DNA from: Serratia sp. M24T3
GTDB lineage: Bacteria; Pseudomonadota; Gammaproteobacteria; Enterobacterales; Enterobacteriaceae
Direction of reading: 5' to 3'
Assembly (NCBI RefSeq): GCF_000257645.1
Contig: NZ_AJHJ01000043.1
Coordinates: 1-37,873 of the forward strand
Length of the DNA: 37,873 nucleotides
Made by a program: the position numbers and the translations under genes. Positions 12,576 through 19,928 of the stretch are shown piece by piece. Position 1 is the first letter of the stretch; every line of letters starts with the position of its first letter. The notes below the pieces were generated by a model that saw nothing but the letters and a program-made list of their open reading frames with translations, made no database searches and was not told the DNA's origin.

Positions 12576-13313
12576 ATGCTACACAATATTCGCATTGTCC
12601 TGGTTGAAACCTCCCACACCGGGAATATGGGCTCCACCGCCCGCGCTATGAAAACCATGGGGTTGTCTAACCTTTATTTGGTCAACCCGCTCGTAAAACC
12701 TGATTCACAGGCAATCTCGATGTCCGCAGGGGCCAGCGACGTAATTGGCAATGCCACTATCGTCGAAACCCTGGATCAGGCTCTCGAAGGTTGCAGCCTG
12801 GTCATCGGTACCAGCGCACGTTCGCGCACCTTGCCATGGCCTATGCTGGAACCTCGCGAATGCGGCGAGCTCAGCGCTAAAACTTCAGTCAATTCTCCCG
12901 TTGCGCTGGTGTTTGGCCGTGAACGTGTAGGGTTGACCAATGAAGAGCTGCAAAAGTGCAACTATCACGTTTGCATTCCCGCCAACCCGGAATACAGCTC
13001 GCTGAATCTGGCGATGGCAGTACAGCTTATTGCCTACGAAGTTCGCGTCGCCTGGTTAAGCCAATTGGAAGCTGAAAAGCCTCAGATTGAATACGAAGAG
13101 ACACCTTATCCGCTGGTTGAAGACCTTGAACGCTTCTATGTTCACCTTGAACAAGTCCTGCTAAAAGTAGGGTTTATTCGCAAGGCGCACCCAGGTCAGG
13201 TGATGAGCAGACTGCGTCGTTTATTCACCCGCGCGCGTCCAGAATCTCAAGAGCTAGCCATCCTGCGTGGCATTTTAAGCGCCGTAGATAAGCAAAATAT
13301 CGATAAGGAATAA
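12576..13313 (+). CDS. trmJ: tRNA (cytidine/uridine-2'-O)-methyltransferase TrmJ
   Basis: SPOUT-class enzyme that 2'-O-methylates position 32 of several tRNAs, using SAM. The protein starts [20 protein letters not shown], matching E. coli TrmJ, giving 245 residues; ten extra in-frame codons upstream (from 12546) are not supported. Knot motifs [21 protein letters not shown] and [14 protein letters not shown] are present, followed by the family's C-terminal extension with [21 protein letters not shown]. It lies just upstream of iscR, as in E. coli. Confidence 0.96.
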
Positions 13314-13400: not shown

Positions 13401-13425
13401 ATACTTGAGTAAATTACTAGGTTAA
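13401..13425 (+). promoter_or_regulatory. IscR type 1 site, distal
   Basis: The 25 bases beginning ATACTTGAGTAAATTAC fit most positions of the type 1 IscR consensus (dyad GACT...AGTC), with about five mismatches, and abut the proximal site. The tandem arrangement resembles the iscR promoter of E. coli. Confidence 0.6.
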
Positions 13426-13450
13426 ATAGTTGACTAAATTAGTCGGGAAT
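13426..13450 (+). promoter_or_regulatory. IscR type 1 site, proximal, over the iscR promoter
   Basis: The 25 bases carry the dyad GACT-AAATT-AGTC flanked by ATAGTT and GGGAAT and match the type 1 IscR consensus at all but one position. A -35-like TTGACT (13430-13435) lies within it, so [2Fe-2S]-IscR binding would block transcription of iscR. Autoregulation therefore looks preserved although most of the operon it normally controls is gone. Confidence 0.8.
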
Positions 13451-13515: not shown

Positions 13516-14010
13516 ATGAGACTGACATCTAAAGGTCGTTATGCTGTTACAGCTATGTTGGACGTAGCACTGCATTCCCAGGAAGGCCCAGTGCCTTTAG
13601 CTGACATCTCTGAACGTCAGGGCATCTCTCTGTCTTATCTGGAGCAGCTGTTCTCCCGTCTGCGTAAACATGAACTGGTTGCCAGCGTTCGTGGTCCGGG
13701 CGGCGGTTATCTGTTAGGTCGTGAAGCCACCGAAATTTCCGTGGGTGCGGTGATTACTGCCGTTGACGAATCTATCGATGCGACCCGTTGCCAGGGTAAA
13801 GAAGGCTGCCAGGGTGGCGAACGCTGCCTGACCCATACCTTATGGCGTGATCTGAGCGAGCGCATTAGCGGCTTCTTGAATGACATTACTATCGGCGAAC
13901 TGGTTAATAACCAAGACGTGCTGGAAGTTGCCGATCGCCAGAATAACGATCTTCGTCGTATGCCGAATGGTCGTCCGCAAGAAACGATTAATGTGAATCT
14001 GCGCGCCTAA
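13516..14010 (+). CDS. iscR: Fe-S cluster-sensing regulator IscR
   Basis: Rrf2-family repressor/activator that senses Fe-S status through a bound [2Fe-2S] cluster and controls iscRSUA, suf and other genes. The 164-residue protein keeps the winged helix ([20 protein letters not shown] onward) and all cluster ligands, Cys92, Cys98, Cys104 and His107 ([16 protein letters not shown]). It is highly similar to E. coli IscR except at the C-terminal tail. It is followed by a terminator-like hairpin and a 302-base gap before iscS, instead of the short leader usual in the isc operon. Confidence 0.97.
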
Positions 14011-14068
14011 TAATGAGTTACGCATTTTCTTAGACGCCAAACATTTTGCTCTGCAATTTGGGCGTAAT

Positions 14069-14134
14069 AAAAACCGGGTTGGATAAGCGCAACGACAATG
14101 TGTCATTGCAGACTTGTCGCCCGGTTTTTGTTTT
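14069..14134 (+). terminator. Terminator-like long hairpin between iscR and iscS
   Basis: AAAAACCGGG (14069-14078) pairs perfectly with CCCGGTTTTT (14120-14129), and T residues continue after it. The 41 bases between contain a smaller hairpin, CAATG-TGT-CATTG (14096-14108). It would uncouple iscS from the iscR promoter. It could also be a repetitive palindromic unit inserted here. From 14135 to 14312 I see no gene and no strong promoter; a -10-like GATAAT lies at 14260-14265 without a good -35. Confidence 0.65.
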
Positions 14135-14312
14135 ATGAACTTTCTCATTAGAAGGCCGCCTTAATAAGCATATTCTGCTTTCCGACCCGCGTTTGGCATG
14201 ATTTCCCTTTTACCCAGCAGTAAAGCCGTTTTAAACTAACCCGACAATGAACTCGCCTCGATAATAAATAGTCACGTTCGTTTGCGGACGCGCAGTACGG
14301 AGCATTTTTGCC

Positions 14313-15479
14313 ATGAAATTACCGATTTATCTGGATTATTCGGCCACTACGCCGGTTGACCCACGCGTAGCCGAAAAGATGATGCAGTGTTTAACGCTGG
14401 ACGGTACTTTCGGTAACCCGGCCTCCCGTTCCCATCGCTACGGCTGGCAGGCTGAAGAGGCGGTGGATGTAGCGCGAAATAATATTGCCGAGCTTATCAA
14501 CGCTGATCCGCGCGAAATAGTTTTCACCTCTGGCGCAACCGAATCGGACAATTTGGCAATCAAGGGTGCCGCGCTGGCCAATCAGCATAAAGGCCGCCAC
14601 ATCATTACTCTCACCACCGAACATAAAGCGGTGCTGGACACCTGCGAGCAGCTCGAGCGTGAAGGTTTCGACGTCACCTATCTCAATCCACAGGCCAATG
14701 GGCTGCTGAGTCTGCAACAGCTGGAACAGACGTTGCGCGATGACACAATTTTAGTGTCAGTGATGCACGTCAACAATGAAATTGGCGTGATTCAAGATAT
14801 CGCCGCCATCGGTGAAATGTGCCGTAGCCGCGAGATCCTGTTCCACGTCGATGCGACGCAAAGCGTAGGTAAGATCCCGGTCGATCTCGGCGAGCTTAAG
14901 GTCGATTTGATGTCGTTTTCTGCGCACAAAATTTATGGCCCGAAGGGCATCGGCGCACTGTTTGTCAGCCGAAAACCCAAGGTTCGGATTGAAGCCCAGA
15001 TCCACGGTGGTGGACACGAGCGCGGTATGCGCTCCGGCACTTTGCCGGTTCACCAGATTGTTGGCATGGGCGAAGCCTATCGCATTGCCAGGCTTGAGAT
15101 GACTGAAGAAGCCGTTCGTCTGGCGACATTGCGCGATCGACTTTGGGCTGGTGTTCGCCAGAACAAAGACGTCTTCCTTAATGGAGCAGAAGGTCACACC
15201 GCTCCCAATATTCTCAACGTCAGCTTTGCCAACGTTGACGGCGAATCGCTGATCATGACCCTTAAAGATCTTGCGGTATCGTCTGGTTCTGCCTGTACCT
15301 CTGCCAGCCTTGAGCCTTCTTACGTATTAAAGGCTCTGGGGCTTAACGATGAGCTGGCGCACAGTTCCATTCGTTTTTCGGTAGGGCGTTTTACTACTGA
15401 AGAAGAGATCGATTACAGTATTTCGCTGATCGGTAAATCAATAAGCCGTCTGCGCGAATTTTCGAACGCTAATCATTGA
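14313..15479 (+). CDS. iscS: Cysteine desulfurase IscS with shortened C-terminus
   Basis: PLP-dependent desulfurase that takes sulfur from cysteine as a persulfide for Fe-S clusters, tRNA thiolation and cofactors. It is collinear with E. coli IscS through the active site: PLP-lysine Lys206 ([10 protein letters not shown]) and catalytic Cys328 ([17 protein letters not shown]). It ends at residue 388 (LREFSNANH) whereas E. coli IscS has 404; the last ~20 residues ([20 protein letters not shown] in E. coli), which help dock IscU, are missing. Many substitutions relative to E. coli in a usually well-conserved protein suggest relaxed constraint. The RBS is ACGGAG. Downstream, only 27 bases separate it from pepB; iscU, iscA, hscB, hscA, fdx and iscX are absent. 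It is probably still active, serving tRNA thiolation and similar pathways. Confidence 0.93.
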
Positions 15480-15506
15480 AGATTAAGAATAATCAGGAGT
15501 GTTGTA

Positions 15507-16829
15507 ATGACGACCGAAGCTACGACTAATGATGTAATGCCCGTCCTGCTGTCTTCACAACCGGCCGACGCACGTTGGGGTGAAAAAGCCCTGCTGAGCA
15601 CGGATTCCAACGGCATCACTATTCATTTTTCTGCTGAAGACACACTGTCTTCTATTTCACGTGCGGCGCGTCGTATCGACGGTCAGGGCGTAAAAAAAGT
15701 TAAACTGGCAGGTGAAGGCTGGGATCTTGAAAACAGCTGGGCGTTCTGGCAAGGCTTCCGTGGCCCGAAAGGCACTCGCAGCGTTGATTGGGCAGAGCTG
15801 TCCACTGCCGATACTAAAACCCTGCAACAGCGTCTGAAGATTATTGACTGGGTTCGCGATATCATCAACAAACCGGCTGAAGATCTTAGCCCGGAAAAAC
15901 TGGCTCGCAGCGCCGTAGATCTGCTGTGTGAGTTTGGTGACTCCATCAGCTATCGTATCCGCAAGGGCGAAGAGCTGCGCGAGAAAGAGTACAACGGCCT
16001 TTACACCGTGGGTCGCGGCTCTGACCGTCCACCGGTTCTGCTGTCTCTGGATTACAACCCGACCGGTAACCCGGACGCGCCAGTGTTTGCCTGTCTGGTA
16101 GGCAAAGGTATTACTTTTGATACCGGCGGTTATAGCTTAAAGCCAAGTGCGTCAATGGATTCAATGAAAGCCGACATGGGTGGCGCCGCCACGCTGACAG
16201 GTGCGCTGGCACTGGCAGCAGCGGGTGGTTTGGACAAACGTGTCAAACTTTACCTGTGCTGTGCCGACAACATGGTTAGCGGTAATGCGCTGAAGCTGGG
16301 CGACATCATTCATTATCGCAACGGTAAAACCGTTGAAGTGATGAACACTGACGCCGAAGGCCGTCTGGTTCTGGCCGATGGCCTAATCGACGCTGCAAAA
16401 CATAATCCAGCTATCCTGATTGATGCCGCAACGCTGACCGGTGCTGCGAAAACTGCGCTGGGCAACGATTATCACGCGCTGTTCAGCTTTGATGATGCGC
16501 TGGCCGCGGAGCTTCTTGAAAGTGCTGCTGCTGAACATGAACCGTTCTGGCGTCTGCCGCTGGCCGAGTTCCATCGCAAACAGTTGCCGTCAAACTTTGC
16601 CGAATTGAACAATATCGGTGGCCCTGCCTATGGCGCGGGTGCCAGCACTGCCGCGGCTTTCCTGTCGCACTTCGTTGAAAACTATAAGAAAGGCTGGTTG
16701 CACATCGACTGTTCCGCTACCTATCGCAAAAGCGCCGCCGACCAATGGTCTGCGGGCGCTACCGGTGTTGGCGTGCGTACGGTTGCCAATTTGCTGTTAG
16801 CAAAAGCCAACACTGGCAAAACCCAATAA
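15507..16829 (+). CDS. pepB: Aminopeptidase B (peptidase B)
   Basis: Cytosolic M17-family leucyl-type aminopeptidase that uses two divalent metals. The 440 residues show the metal-site motifs [16 protein letters not shown] and [14 protein letters not shown], and the end of the protein ([17 protein letters not shown]) matches E. coli PepB. It is about 13 residues longer than E. coli PepB, at the N-terminus and C-terminal tail. The RBS CAGGAGT lies 8 bases before the ATG. In E. coli pepB follows iscX; here it follows iscS directly, probably as one transcript with iscS and sseB. Confidence 0.96.
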
Positions 16830-16848: not shown

Positions 16849-17697
16849 ATGAGCGTCCCGCACGATATTCCTGCCGCAACTGCTACGGATGAAAACGAGC
16901 TTGAGTGTTTGCTCAGGCTTTCTGTGACTCAGGCAGCCTATCGCCCGGCCTTTTATCAGCTATTGCTTGATTCAACGGTGTGGGTGTTAGGCGATGCAGG
17001 CCAGCAGGACGGCGACCTGGCGTCTGAAATTAACGCGGGCAGCGAGCTAAACTTGCTGCATTGGGAAAAGCAGGATGGCAGCTCGATCATTCCTTTCTTT
17101 TCTTCTGTTGAAGTGCTTGAGCGCGCGGCGGCAGGTGAAAGTGAAGACGAACAGTCTTTTGTCGCCTTACCGGCAAAGATCTTGTTTGAGATGACTCAGG
17201 GCGAGGAGCTGTTTCTCAATCCAAAATCGGAGTACGGCAAAGAGCTTTACCCGAGTGAGATAACCATGCTGCTCAATACTGGCGGGTTGGCGGTGCCGAC
17301 CGAGCTGGTTTTAGACGCCGAAAGCCAGCTGTTAATCGGTCAGCCGGAGGAATATCCGTCGGCAATGGTCGATGCGTTGACCACCCTGTTTAGCCAGAAA
17401 AAACCGGTTCGCCGGGCATTTTTGGCGCTGATCCACGATAAAACTGTCGATCCAGAACCCAATCTGCTGATTGGGATCGAGGCTGATGGATCCGAGGCTG
17501 AAGTTGACGCCTTGATCCGCGAGGCCGGAAATGTAGCTAGCGAAACGTCACCTGACGATAAGCCGGTTGATTTCTGCGTGGTGAATGAGAAGGAGAGGGG
17601 GCTGAGCCATTATCTGGTTAGCCATACTCAGCCTTTCTATCAGCGTAAATGGGGCAGTTGGTTACGCAATATTATTCCTTCATCGGGCAAAGCCTGA
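16849..17697 (+). CDS. sseB: SseB family protein
   Basis: Homologue of E. coli SseB (enhanced serine sensitivity), biochemical role unknown. The 282-residue protein is acidic, with the N-terminal SseB domain (about 10-125, NELECLLRLSVTQAAYRPAFYQLLLDSTVWVLG) and the C-terminal SseB domain (about 135-275, ending in SHYLVSHTQPFYQRKWGSW). It starts 19 bases after pepB with a plausible RBS. It should not be confused with the Salmonella SPI-2 translocon protein of the same name. Confidence 0.93.
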   Translation: MSVPHDIPAATATDENELECLLRLSVTQAAYRPAFYQLLLDSTVWVLGDAGQQDGDLASEINAGSELNLLHWEKQDGSSIIPFFSSVEVLERAAAGESEDEQSFVALPAKILFEMTQGEELFLNPKSEYGKELYPSEITMLLNTGGLAVPTELVLDAESQLLIGQPEEYPSAMVDALTTLFSQKKPVRRAFLALIHDKTVDPEPNLLIGIEADGSEAEVDALIREAGNVASETSPDDKPVDFCVVNEKERGLSHYLVSHTQPFYQRKWGSWLRNIIPSSGKA

Positions 17698-17783: not shown

Positions 17784-18962
17784 TTACCATCCGTGGATTA
17801 TTGGCCACAGCGCGTCAATCTTTTCACTGCTATCTCTGACGACCGCAAATTCCCCGTGTTGGCTCACTGTCGCACAGGCGTGATTGGGTAAAATTCTCAC
17901 CCGACTGCCGTAGGGTAACTCTGGAAGCGATTGTTGGCTGCCAGGTCGCAAAGACAGAATCCCGTGTTCCTGATTCACCCCGGTCATAATTAAATCTCCC
18001 AGCGGCTTACCGGACATATCGCAGACGATGCCATAGCCTTGATCGACATCCTGCGATGCCGTGCCTCGGTCGCGAGACATTGCCATCCAGCCAGCATCCA
18101 CCATGATCCAACCTTTTTGGCGCTGATGACCAATCACCGTAGCAACTACTGACAGGGCAATGTCTGAGGTCTGACACACGCCCGCACCGGTCATGACTAG
18201 ATCAAACAGGGTATAAACTCCCGCACGAACTTCAGTGACACCGGTTAAATTCTGACTGAAATGGGCGGTTGGCGTCGAGCCTACGCTGACCACCGGGCTC
18301 GGTAAACCCGCTTCGCGCAGTGCTTCGGCACAGGCCACGGCGGCAGAACGTTCTCTTTCCGCCATGGCCTGATGCTCCTGCAAACTCTTGCAGTGATAAG
18401 ACTCACCGGCATGAGTGATAATGCCACGCAGTTCCGCCCCCTGGTTATGCAGTATTTTACCTATCTCGATAAGTAGAGCATCACCCGGCACCACGCCGCT
18501 GCGATGGCCGTCGCTGTCAATTTCAATCAGCGCTGGAATTTTGACCTCGGACTGTCGGGAATAGTCTGCTACGACCTGCGCCTGCTCAATGCTGTCTAAA
18601 ATCACGCTGATATCCGTGCCTGCTTTTAGCAAAGCGACGACGCGAGCCAGCTTTTGCGGTGCAATACCCACGGCGTAAATCAGATTTTTGCAGCCTGTCG
18701 CTGAAAAGACTTCAGCTTCTTTTAACGTAGAAACTGTCGCCGGGCCATTACCGCCAGTGAGGATAAGCCTGGCTGCCTCAACTGATTTAACCGTTTTGAG
18801 ATGCGGCCGCAAAGGGATGCCAAAACTGTCGGTGTGTTTGCGCAGTCGAGCAACATTACGTTCAAGCTGGTCGCGGTTTAGCAGCAGGAAAGGCGTTTCT
18901 CTGTCGTGAATGCTCTCCCCGTGAAATGGGGCAGTATCTTGAATATTGAGTTTGTCAGTCAT
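17784..18962 (-). CDS. D-threonine aldolase / D-serine dehydratase-like PLP enzyme (BhcC-like)
   Basis: Fold-type III PLP enzyme of the D-threonine aldolase / DSD1 family, which includes beta-hydroxyaspartate aldolase BhcC and D-threo-3-hydroxyaspartate dehydratase. The 392 residues start with an alanine-racemase-like barrel: PLP-lysine in LRPHLKTVKS (about 52-61), substrate/PLP loops EIDSDGHRSGV and VSVGSTPTAH. The C-terminal beta domain holds LPNHACATV (354-362), where His and Cys match the metal (Zn/Mn) ligands of D-serine dehydratase. Together with the adjacent iminosuccinate-reductase-like and dehydratase-like genes, a role in hydroxy-amino-acid breakdown such as beta-hydroxyaspartate is likely. 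Aldolase versus dehydratase activity cannot be told by eye. Last gene of a minus-strand operon, 18 bases after the reductase gene. Confidence 0.82.
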   Translation of the reverse strand: MTDKLNIQDTAPFHGESIHDRETPFLLLNRDQLERNVARLRKHTDSFGIPLRPHLKTVKSVEAARLILTGGNGPATVSTLKEAEVFSATGCKNLIYAVGIAPQKLARVVALLKAGTDISVILDSIEQAQVVADYSRQSEVKIPALIEIDSDGHRSGVVPGDALLIEIGKILHNQGAELRGIITHAGESYHCKSLQEHQAMAERERSAAVACAEALREAGLPSPVVSVGSTPTAHFSQNLTGVTEVRAGVYTLFDLVMTGAGVCQTSDIALSVVATVIGHQRQKGWIMVDAGWMAMSRDRGTASQDVDQGYGIVCDMSGKPLGDLIMTGVNQEHGILSLRPGSQQSLPELPYGSRVRILPNHACATVSQHGEFAVVRDSSEKIDALWPIIHGW

Positions 18963-18980
18963 ATCGGTAGCCTGGAAAAA

Positions 18981-19928
18981 TTAAAAAGAATCCAACGCGT
19001 TAACAATCGCGGCGGCAATAAAGAGGTCTTGCAGCGCGATGCCCGAGCTGTCAAAAACAGTGATTTCATCTCGATTGCTGCGACCCGGCGTTTTACCAAG
19101 GATCACGTCACCCATGGCATTAACCGGGGTATCTTTAGCGGCAAACTGCGTGGCCAGATGTTGAAACTCGCCAATCGTTCGCGACTGTTCCGGCAGGTCG
19201 GCAAAAAGCCGTGCCTGATTAAATAGTTCTGCGGGCAGCTCTTGCTTACCCTGCGCATCTGACCCCATGCTTGCAACGTGCGTGCCGGGTTTCACCCATT
19301 CAGCCTGAAATAAAGGAGAGCGTGATCCGGTGGCGGTGACAATAATATCAGCGGCTTTACAGGCCGTTTCCGCATCACTGAGTCTCGCATCAATGCCTTT
19401 ATTCAGCAGATGCTGGCGTAAACTTTCGGCTCTGGTCTGGTCCCGATTGACGATATAAACGTGGGCAATCGGCAGAATTTCAAGCAGCGCGTCGACCTCA
19501 TAAAATGCCTGATGCCCGGCCCCAAAGATTGCCAGCCGTGTAGCATCGGGTCTGGCTAGATATTTTGCCGCTACCGCATCGGCAGCGGCGGTGCGGTAGG
19601 CGTTAACCTTGCCACCCTCGAGTACGGTTTCTAGTTCGCCGGTTTCATCGTTGAGCAACATGATGTACGAGTTATGATTCGGCAGACCTTTGGCGCTGTT
19701 GTTTGGCCAATAAGTGCCTATTTTTAAACCGGTTAAAGGAGTTGTCACAGACTGCGTTGCTGACTTGACGGTAAAACGCGAGCTGGTCTCTGACCCGTGG
19801 CCGATCAGTACGGGAAACAGCGTGCTTTGTGGTGAAGCGACGGCAATAAACGCAGCTTCAACTGCCTCGAAAGCCAACGGGTGAGAGACCACGGTTAAAC
19901 ACTCTGCTGCTGAAATAAATCGCATCAT
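18981..19928 (-). CDS. Ornithine cyclodeaminase / mu-crystallin family reductase (BhcD-like)
   Basis: NAD(P)H-dependent imine reductase of the OCD/mu-crystallin family, which includes iminosuccinate reductase BhcD, DauB and alanine dehydrogenases. The 315 residues contain the dinucleotide fold AIFGAGHQAFYEVDAL (about 134-149), GGKVNAYRTAAADAVAAKYLA (about 104-124, with the Arg that binds substrate carboxylate) and the C-terminal VFDSSGIALQDLF. In the beta-hydroxyaspartate cycle, BhcD reduces iminosuccinate made by BhcB to aspartate; the tight linkage here (one base after the dehydratase stop) suggests the same hand-over. Alternative: interconversion of D/L amino acids as in dauBAR, given the DauR-type regulator next to it. 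Confidence 0.83.
   Translation of the reverse strand: MMRFISAAECLTVVSHPLAFEAVEAAFIAVASPQSTLFPVLIGHGSETSSRFTVKSATQSVTTPLTGLKIGTYWPNNSAKGLPNHNSYIMLLNDETGELETVLEGGKVNAYRTAAADAVAAKYLARPDATRLAIFGAGHQAFYEVDALLEILPIAHVYIVNRDQTRAESLRQHLLNKGIDARLSDAETACKAADIIVTATGSRSPLFQAEWVKPGTHVASMGSDAQGKQELPAELFNQARLFADLPEQSRTIGEFQHLATQFAAKDTPVNAMGDVILGKTPGRSNRDEITVFDSSGIALQDLFIAAAIVNALDSF

Follow-up and report, generated by a model that had tools for sequence, protein, structure and literature searches.

In Escherichia coli, ISC is the textbook housekeeping system of Fe-S cluster assembly, with SUF as the stress backup. According to an excerpt of a 2024 paper (PMC11559095), most bacteria have one Fe-S system, as opposed to the two of E. 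coli and related enterobacteria. In Mycobacterium tuberculosis, as stated in the available part of the source (PMC10848736), SUF is the main route and a lone iscS is not surrounded by iscA, iscU, hscA, or hscB; SUF combined with an orphan iscS is thus already known in bacteria. For Pantoea stewartii, an excerpt of PMC8882988 recounts the E. coli two-pathway model and reports a growth defect upon iscR deletion; L074, a strain of that P. stewartii subspecies, carries a collapsed locus of the kind described below. Our literature search recognized no report of ISC loss in Enterobacterales; these genomes may already be listed in the tables of a 2022 survey (Garcia and colleagues).

The window analyzed here, a 37,873-nucleotide stretch from Serratia sp. 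M24T3 (G000:C43), has the usual gene order trmJ-iscR-iscS-pepB-sseB, and all five products scored above their NCBIfam equivalog cutoffs (Table 1). The preliminary description had noted that 27 bases separate the iscS stop from the pepB ATG and that the flanks are retained (trmJ upstream, pepB-sseB downstream), and both points were confirmed, by the ORF coordinates and the NCBIfam equivalogs, respectively. ORF calling placed the trmJ start at TTG 12546. Using an IscR type-1 consensus, which gives scores of 24 and 22 upstream of E. coli iscR, we found two similar sites 5' of iscR, with agreement at 24/25 (13426-13450) and 20/25 (13401-13425) positions. Beyond sseB, two BhcC/BhcD-like genes (beta-hydroxyaspartate cycle) are located on the minus strand at 17784-19928; both scored far below equivalog cutoffs.

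Table 1. Features of the collapsed isc locus and the suf operon of M24T3
Feature	Position	Strand	Basis or remark
trmJ	12576..13313	+	NCBIfam TrmJ equivalog, 478.6 bits; conserved upstream neighbor
Two IscR type-1-like sites, 5' of iscR	13401..13450	+	Consensus scan
iscR	13516..14010	+	NCBIfam IscR equivalogs; ligands Cys92, Cys98, Cys104, His107 kept
Terminator-like hairpin and U-run, iscR/iscS gap	14063..14137	+	Folding energy
iscS, 388 aa	14313..15479	+	NCBIfam IscS equivalog
iscS/pepB junction, 27 bases	15480..15506	+	Place where iscUA-hscBA-fdx-iscX would be
pepB	15507..16829	+	NCBIfam PepB, 735.7 bits; conserved downstream neighbor
sseB	16849..17697	+	NCBIfam SseB, 324.4 bits; conserved downstream neighbor
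sufABCDSE, complete, six genes in order	G000:C5, about 141.0-146.7 kb		Each above curated equivalog cutoff

Compared with the iscRSUA-hscBA-fdx-iscX and sufABCDSE operons of E. coli, M24T3 is similar in the locus, its order, and its flanks, in an IscR with cluster ligands, and in a six-gene suf operon. It differs in that scaffold, chaperones, ferredoxin, IscX, and CyaY are missing, IscS is shorter with an altered partner surface, and the suf Fur box is weak. With M. tuberculosis, as far as the available part of its description goes, it shares SUF plus an orphan iscS, but the mycobacterial iscS lies outside any isc locus, whereas here an iscR-iscS pair is kept between trmJ and pepB, close relatives have a complete operon, and the loss happened repeatedly. 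Like the single-system bacteria, most of which have SUF only, the collapsed lineages appear to have one general Fe-S system; in contrast to them, they are exceptions within an order cited, in the excerpt of the 2024 paper, as having two.

The whole genome (5.25 Mb in 113 contigs) was searched for iscU, iscA, hscA/B, fdx, and sufABCDSE. A profile search for IscU/NifU_N (PF01592) yielded no match in the genome, while the same search detected the E. coli control. No HscA match genome-wide exceeded the curated cutoff of 708.55 bits, the best one (623.8 bits) presumably being DnaK, and neither HscB, Fdx, and IscX nor the frataxin CyaY had any match in the whole genome. The IscA query matched two paralogues only: SufA, whose gene is in the suf operon, and a protein with 39% identity that is presumably ErpA. 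The absence of scaffold, chaperone, and ferredoxin genes, previously stated for the window, thus extends to the genome, and SUF, which had been predicted as the remaining system, was found complete. Furthermore, ThiI, TusA, and NfuA were present in M24T3 and in all 13 genomes checked (9/9 collapsed, 4/4 control). In a 60-genome sample including M24T3, 14 genomes were without an IscU/NifU-domain match; all 14 had SufBD, and none had CyaY or an HscA above the cutoff. As there is no second scaffold system in M24T3 (no IscU/NifU N domain) and the carriers left are SufA, the presumed ErpA, and NfuA, we infer that general Fe-S cluster assembly depends on SUF alone, which supports the preliminary description in this respect.

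A second IscS-like desulfurase is encoded at L181:4889-8009 (G000:C13, about 23.9-27.0 kb). It is 48% identical to IscS, scored below the IscS, NifS, and DndA cutoffs, and has an MFS transporter on one side and, on the other, a 241-aa ORF without a Pfam match. Among the matches listed, a full-length relative was found in G002 and C-terminal fragments only in G003 and G004. The reciprocal state was observed in three full-size enterobacterial genomes (G018, G007, and G016), which have IscU and no SufBD match; G018 is the sampled sister of the collapsed Lonsdalea in the tree described below.

We consider the following explanation very likely. The block iscU-iscA-hscB-hscA-fdx-iscX has been lost along with the unlinked cyaY, which would leave sufABCDSE as the sole general assembly route. 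IscR would stay as a [2Fe-2S] sensor that autoregulates its promoter and is the probable activator of suf, and IscS would stay as sulfur donor to acceptors other than IscU (ThiI, TusA, and similar ones). Once freed from IscU, ferredoxin, and other ISC partners, the docking surface of IscS for them decayed, with its TusA surface remaining under selection. The suf Fur box has decayed too in most of these lineages, and a stress operon would thereby take on the housekeeping role. Of this, the gene losses, the presence of SUF, the surface changes, and purifying selection are seen in the sequences, whereas SUF as sole route, the derepression of suf, and the sulfur-donor role of IscS are inferred from them. 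The clean internal loss proposed in the preliminary description needs three additions: the C-terminal tail and the partner surface of IscS have changed too, a terminator-like hairpin parts iscR from iscS in this genus, and CyaY, which is encoded away from isc in E. coli, is gone as well.

IscS of M24T3 scored 675.3 bits with TIGR02006 (cutoff, 643.2 bits). It keeps the active Cys328 and the TusA contacts, has T at position 101 and E at position 112 (E. coli numbering), and has no C-terminal IscU-binding tail. IscU contacts residues 379 to 391 of E. coli IscS, and IscS without residues 376 to 404 fails to bind IscU, according to the available part of PMC2854127, which also maps the binding of TusA, ThiI, CyaY, and IscX. 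The tail motif was detected in none of the 17 collapsed loci but in all 91 loci with iscU adjoining iscS, and the collapsed proteins, 384 to 405 residues long, end differently. Two gammaproteobacterial MAG loci (L123:4009-6409 and L124:6818-9203), with two tandem desulfurases, iscA-hscB-hscA, and no IscU in the stretch examined, keep the tail and were tallied apart from the 91.

Of the IscS positions 1 to 379, 251 showed conservation in 95% or more of the 45 ISC-bearing controls (the identical pair L040/L061 counting as two rows), and 182 of these were unchanged in all 17 collapsed proteins. Only K101 and R112 were altered in all 17. Retained throughout were the active-site residues H104, D180, K206, and C328, the TusA contacts W45, E49, D52, and D65, and the residues R220, R237, and M239, which are also needed for ThiI binding. 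R225 was kept in 14, R223 in 12, and R116 in 10 of the collapsed proteins. F89, a weak ThiI contact, was lost in 13/17 and kept in 4, despite the presence of ThiI where checked. Within the genus, dN/dS of iscS was 0.040 to 0.062, compared to 0.050 to 0.055 for trmJ and 0.027 to 0.052 for pepB; by this measure, iscS is under strong purifying selection. The active site and the TusA surface are maintained as well. The economical reading is that IscS serves tRNA thiolation and other thio-cofactors.

Alternatively, IscS could still be an Fe-S donor that feeds SufBCD in a hybrid ISC/SUF pathway, rather than working mainly in tRNA and cofactor thiolation. Its retention in 17/17 collapsed loci, including the nine collapsed genomes of the genome sample, is compatible with this, and M. 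tuberculosis IscS, with no iscU beside it, reportedly plays a part in the activity of Fe-S enzymes (PMC10848736, in the available part). However, M24T3 has its own SufS and SufE, and what all 17 proteins retain is the TusA surface along with part of the ThiI surface. We regard a hybrid pathway as unlikely, though more probable than the other alternatives considered, and prefer IscS as a donor for thiolation.

The IscS signature was evaluated with 5 IscU-less and 13 IscU-bearing genomes new to the analysis, several of the latter being tiny and fast evolving. The prediction was fixed before the held-out sequences were read; the ends of the IscS matches were known earlier, which made the evaluation of the tail less than completely blind. 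R112 was replaced in 5/5 IscU-less and kept in 13/13 IscU-bearing genomes. By eye, the tail was lost in 5/5 IscU-less genomes (G033 retains SPLW before diverging) and clear in 12/13 IscU-bearing ones (G058 retains SPLWE only). When discovery and held-out sets were combined, R112 was replaced in 22/22 IscU-less genomes and kept in 58/58 IscU-bearing rows (two of them identical), and the IscU-binding tail was gone in 22/22 IscU-less genomes. K101 failed as a diagnostic residue, as it was kept in 3/5 held-out IscU-less genomes and absent in 4/13 controls. All four TusA contacts were intact in only 3/5 IscU-less and 10/13 control genomes, and R220/R237/M239 in 2/5 IscU-less genomes; most of these genomes are reduced.

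R112 is a shared contact: ferredoxin docks at R112/R116 (PMC3750173), R112 takes part in CyaY salt bridges in a simulation (PMC5176006), and R112/R116 are involved in ACP binding (PMC13343975), each according to an excerpt of the respective paper. Five ISC-bearing genomes without CyaY (G011, G014, G019, G026 [L034], and G034) keep R112, as does Erwinia OLFS4/G035, which is ISC bearing without detected IscX. Since R112 persists without CyaY or detected IscX, it is more likely conserved on account of ferredoxin or ACP than of frataxin or IscX.

Frataxin reportedly co-distributes with the ISC chaperones across genomes, as described by Huynen and colleagues. A sample of 178 genomes of the family contained 112 with an IscU-domain match, one of which (G185) was taken as NifU only and set apart by its 295-aa frame and weaker score. 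CyaY was found in 103 of the 111 genomes with an ISC-type IscU and in none of the 67 without (Fisher P = 2e-40, a descriptive value, the genomes being related). Seven of the eight ISC-bearing genomes without CyaY have at most 1.0 Mb, and the eighth is G026. The latter (5.4 Mb) has ISC and SUF, and its IscS (L034) keeps R112 and the tail; its relative Symbiopectobacterium (G071) has CyaY. CyaY thus tracks the ISC genes as in the earlier comparison, but here the co-loss is repeated inside one family and accompanied by a matching change in IscS.

The loss is not confined to M24T3. Among 110 compared iscS loci, 17 were collapsed to iscR-iscS-pepB; as the 110 comprise 30 loci from the genome sample and the best 80 of 588, this proportion is not a loss rate. 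HscB and HscA references for this comparison were partial ORFs of L058. Five collapsed loci belong to the genus of M24T3 and one to its sister genus (G028). The others were found in G008 and G030 with a MAG (bin27), in Lonsdalea quercina, in three Pantoea with G024, and in Erwinia persicina with an uncultured Erwinia and Pantoea sp. IMH. The observation in the preliminary description was correct, and only the scale differs: the loss recurs in the order and is not a one-off. Whole-genome checks of eight database-named collapsed genomes revealed SufB in 8/8 (split in one), CyaY and ISC-type IscU in 0/8, and one NifU-like match; the corresponding numbers for eight ISC-bearing controls were SufB 7/8, CyaY 8/8, and IscU 8/8. 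The split SufB, of Pantoea anthophila (G064:C39:141261-141931), consists of two overlapping pieces in different frames and is likely a sequencing error or a broken gene.

In a tree built from SuhB, TrmJ, PepB, and SseB, the collapsed taxa were scattered. The genus of M24T3 grouped with its sister genus, also collapsed, in the neighborhood of Serratia and Yersinia, a placement that tentatively points to the Rahnella/Rouxiella/Ewingella group. Constrained-tree tests rejected monophyly of all 17 collapsed taxa (delta lnL 626; AU P = 2e-4, with 5,000 resamplings, fewer than the 10,000 recommended for the program). Three tested clade pairings and a union of Lonsdalea with G008/G030/bin27 were also rejected, but a single loss within Erwiniaceae was not (P = 0.19). 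Since the clades are scattered and their union is rejected, there would have been at least four independent ISC losses, provided that no regain occurred. In another family of the order, G052 (91% complete) has SUF, no CyaY, and only a 30-bit IscU-domain match, and its IscS (L267) has Q at position 112 and no tail; it is probably a further independent loss.

The alternative is one ancient ISC loss, after which Mixta, some Erwinia, and other taxa reacquired the entire operon in place. Conserved flanks make such a replacement conceivable. Furthermore, R112 is changed to E in both the genus of M24T3 and one member of the Pantoea group, and to H in both Lonsdalea and G008/G030, and the unrejected single loss in Erwiniaceae fits as well. 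On the other hand, the IscS tails differ among the clades, and monophyly of the 17 was rejected, although such tests judge topology and not regain itself. We consider ancient loss with regain improbable and favor repeated loss. It seems somewhat more probable than otherwise that at least four lineages took one repeatable route from ISC to SUF as the housekeeping pathway, consisting of loss of iscUA-hscBA-fdx and cyaY, loss of Fur control over suf, and specialization of IscS in sulfur supply for tRNA and cofactors, in which case Arg112 would be diagnostic of a working ISC system. Such apparently SUF-only, free-living relatives would be natural ISC knockouts with close ISC-bearing neighbors, permitting direct tests of the roles of CyaY, Fdx, IscX, and the IscS-ACP contact. 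They would also bear on how a stress operon switches to housekeeping and on which IscS surface serves which partner.

Relocation of the ISC genes or takeover by a NIF system is very improbable for M24T3: a NifU-sized match exists in G002 of the same genus and a 45% match in a 290-aa frame in the MAG bin27, but neither M24T3 nor G001, G003, and G004 has any NifU_N match, and this explanation was rejected for M24T3. An assembly deletion or misjoin between iscS and pepB, conceivable in a draft of 113 contigs, has a negligible probability and was ruled out even without read mapping, because all four other species of the genus (L022-L025; one of them, G003, a two-contig genome) have the same collapsed arrangement, with the 27 bases not necessarily identical, a same-species two-contig genome (G159) lacks IscU and CyaY in a genome-level search, and CyaY, HscA, HscB, Fdx, and IscX are all missing genome-wide. 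We conclude that the loss of the ISC genes from this genome is real.

Regarding regulation, the cluster ligands of IscR (Cys3His) are kept in 17/17 collapsed and 31/31 control proteins. The hairpin downstream of iscR was missed by a loop-limited scan, and has a minimum free energy of -35.1 kcal/mol (14055-14150; z = -5.3). A hairpin with a T-run is present 3' of iscR in 5/5 members of the genus, and a different one is found in the same place in the sister genus (G028). Other collapsed clades have short iscR-iscS spacers (47 to 142 bases), some without such a hairpin. Because the strong hairpin and U-run follow iscR, iscS probably has its own promoter in this genus. A scan for a sigma-70 promoter of iscS detected none; it gave two sites, where chance alone would yield 2.7, and the plus-strand site lies inside iscS.

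At sufA of the genus, the match to the IscR type-2 consensus (18) was not above shuffled sequences (95% null, 19 to 20). Type-2 scoring was rejected as a discriminator, since several ISC-bearing genomes likewise had scores that did not exceed the null. At sufA, the best match to the Fur 7-1-7 pattern reached at least 12/14 in 15/19 ISC-bearing but only 1/17 collapsed promoters, the threshold of 12 having been picked after the scores were known (the null from shuffled 200-base promoters peaks at 9). The score difference was supported by a rank test (P = 7e-6, uncorrected for kinship). Exceptions were the collapsed G024, with an intact Fur match, and the ISC-bearing Samsonia, Mixta, G026, and G035, with scores below 12. 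Loss of Fur repression, if true, would let SUF operate in iron-replete cells. Many sufA promoters have the block CAAGAGGTTGAA in common.
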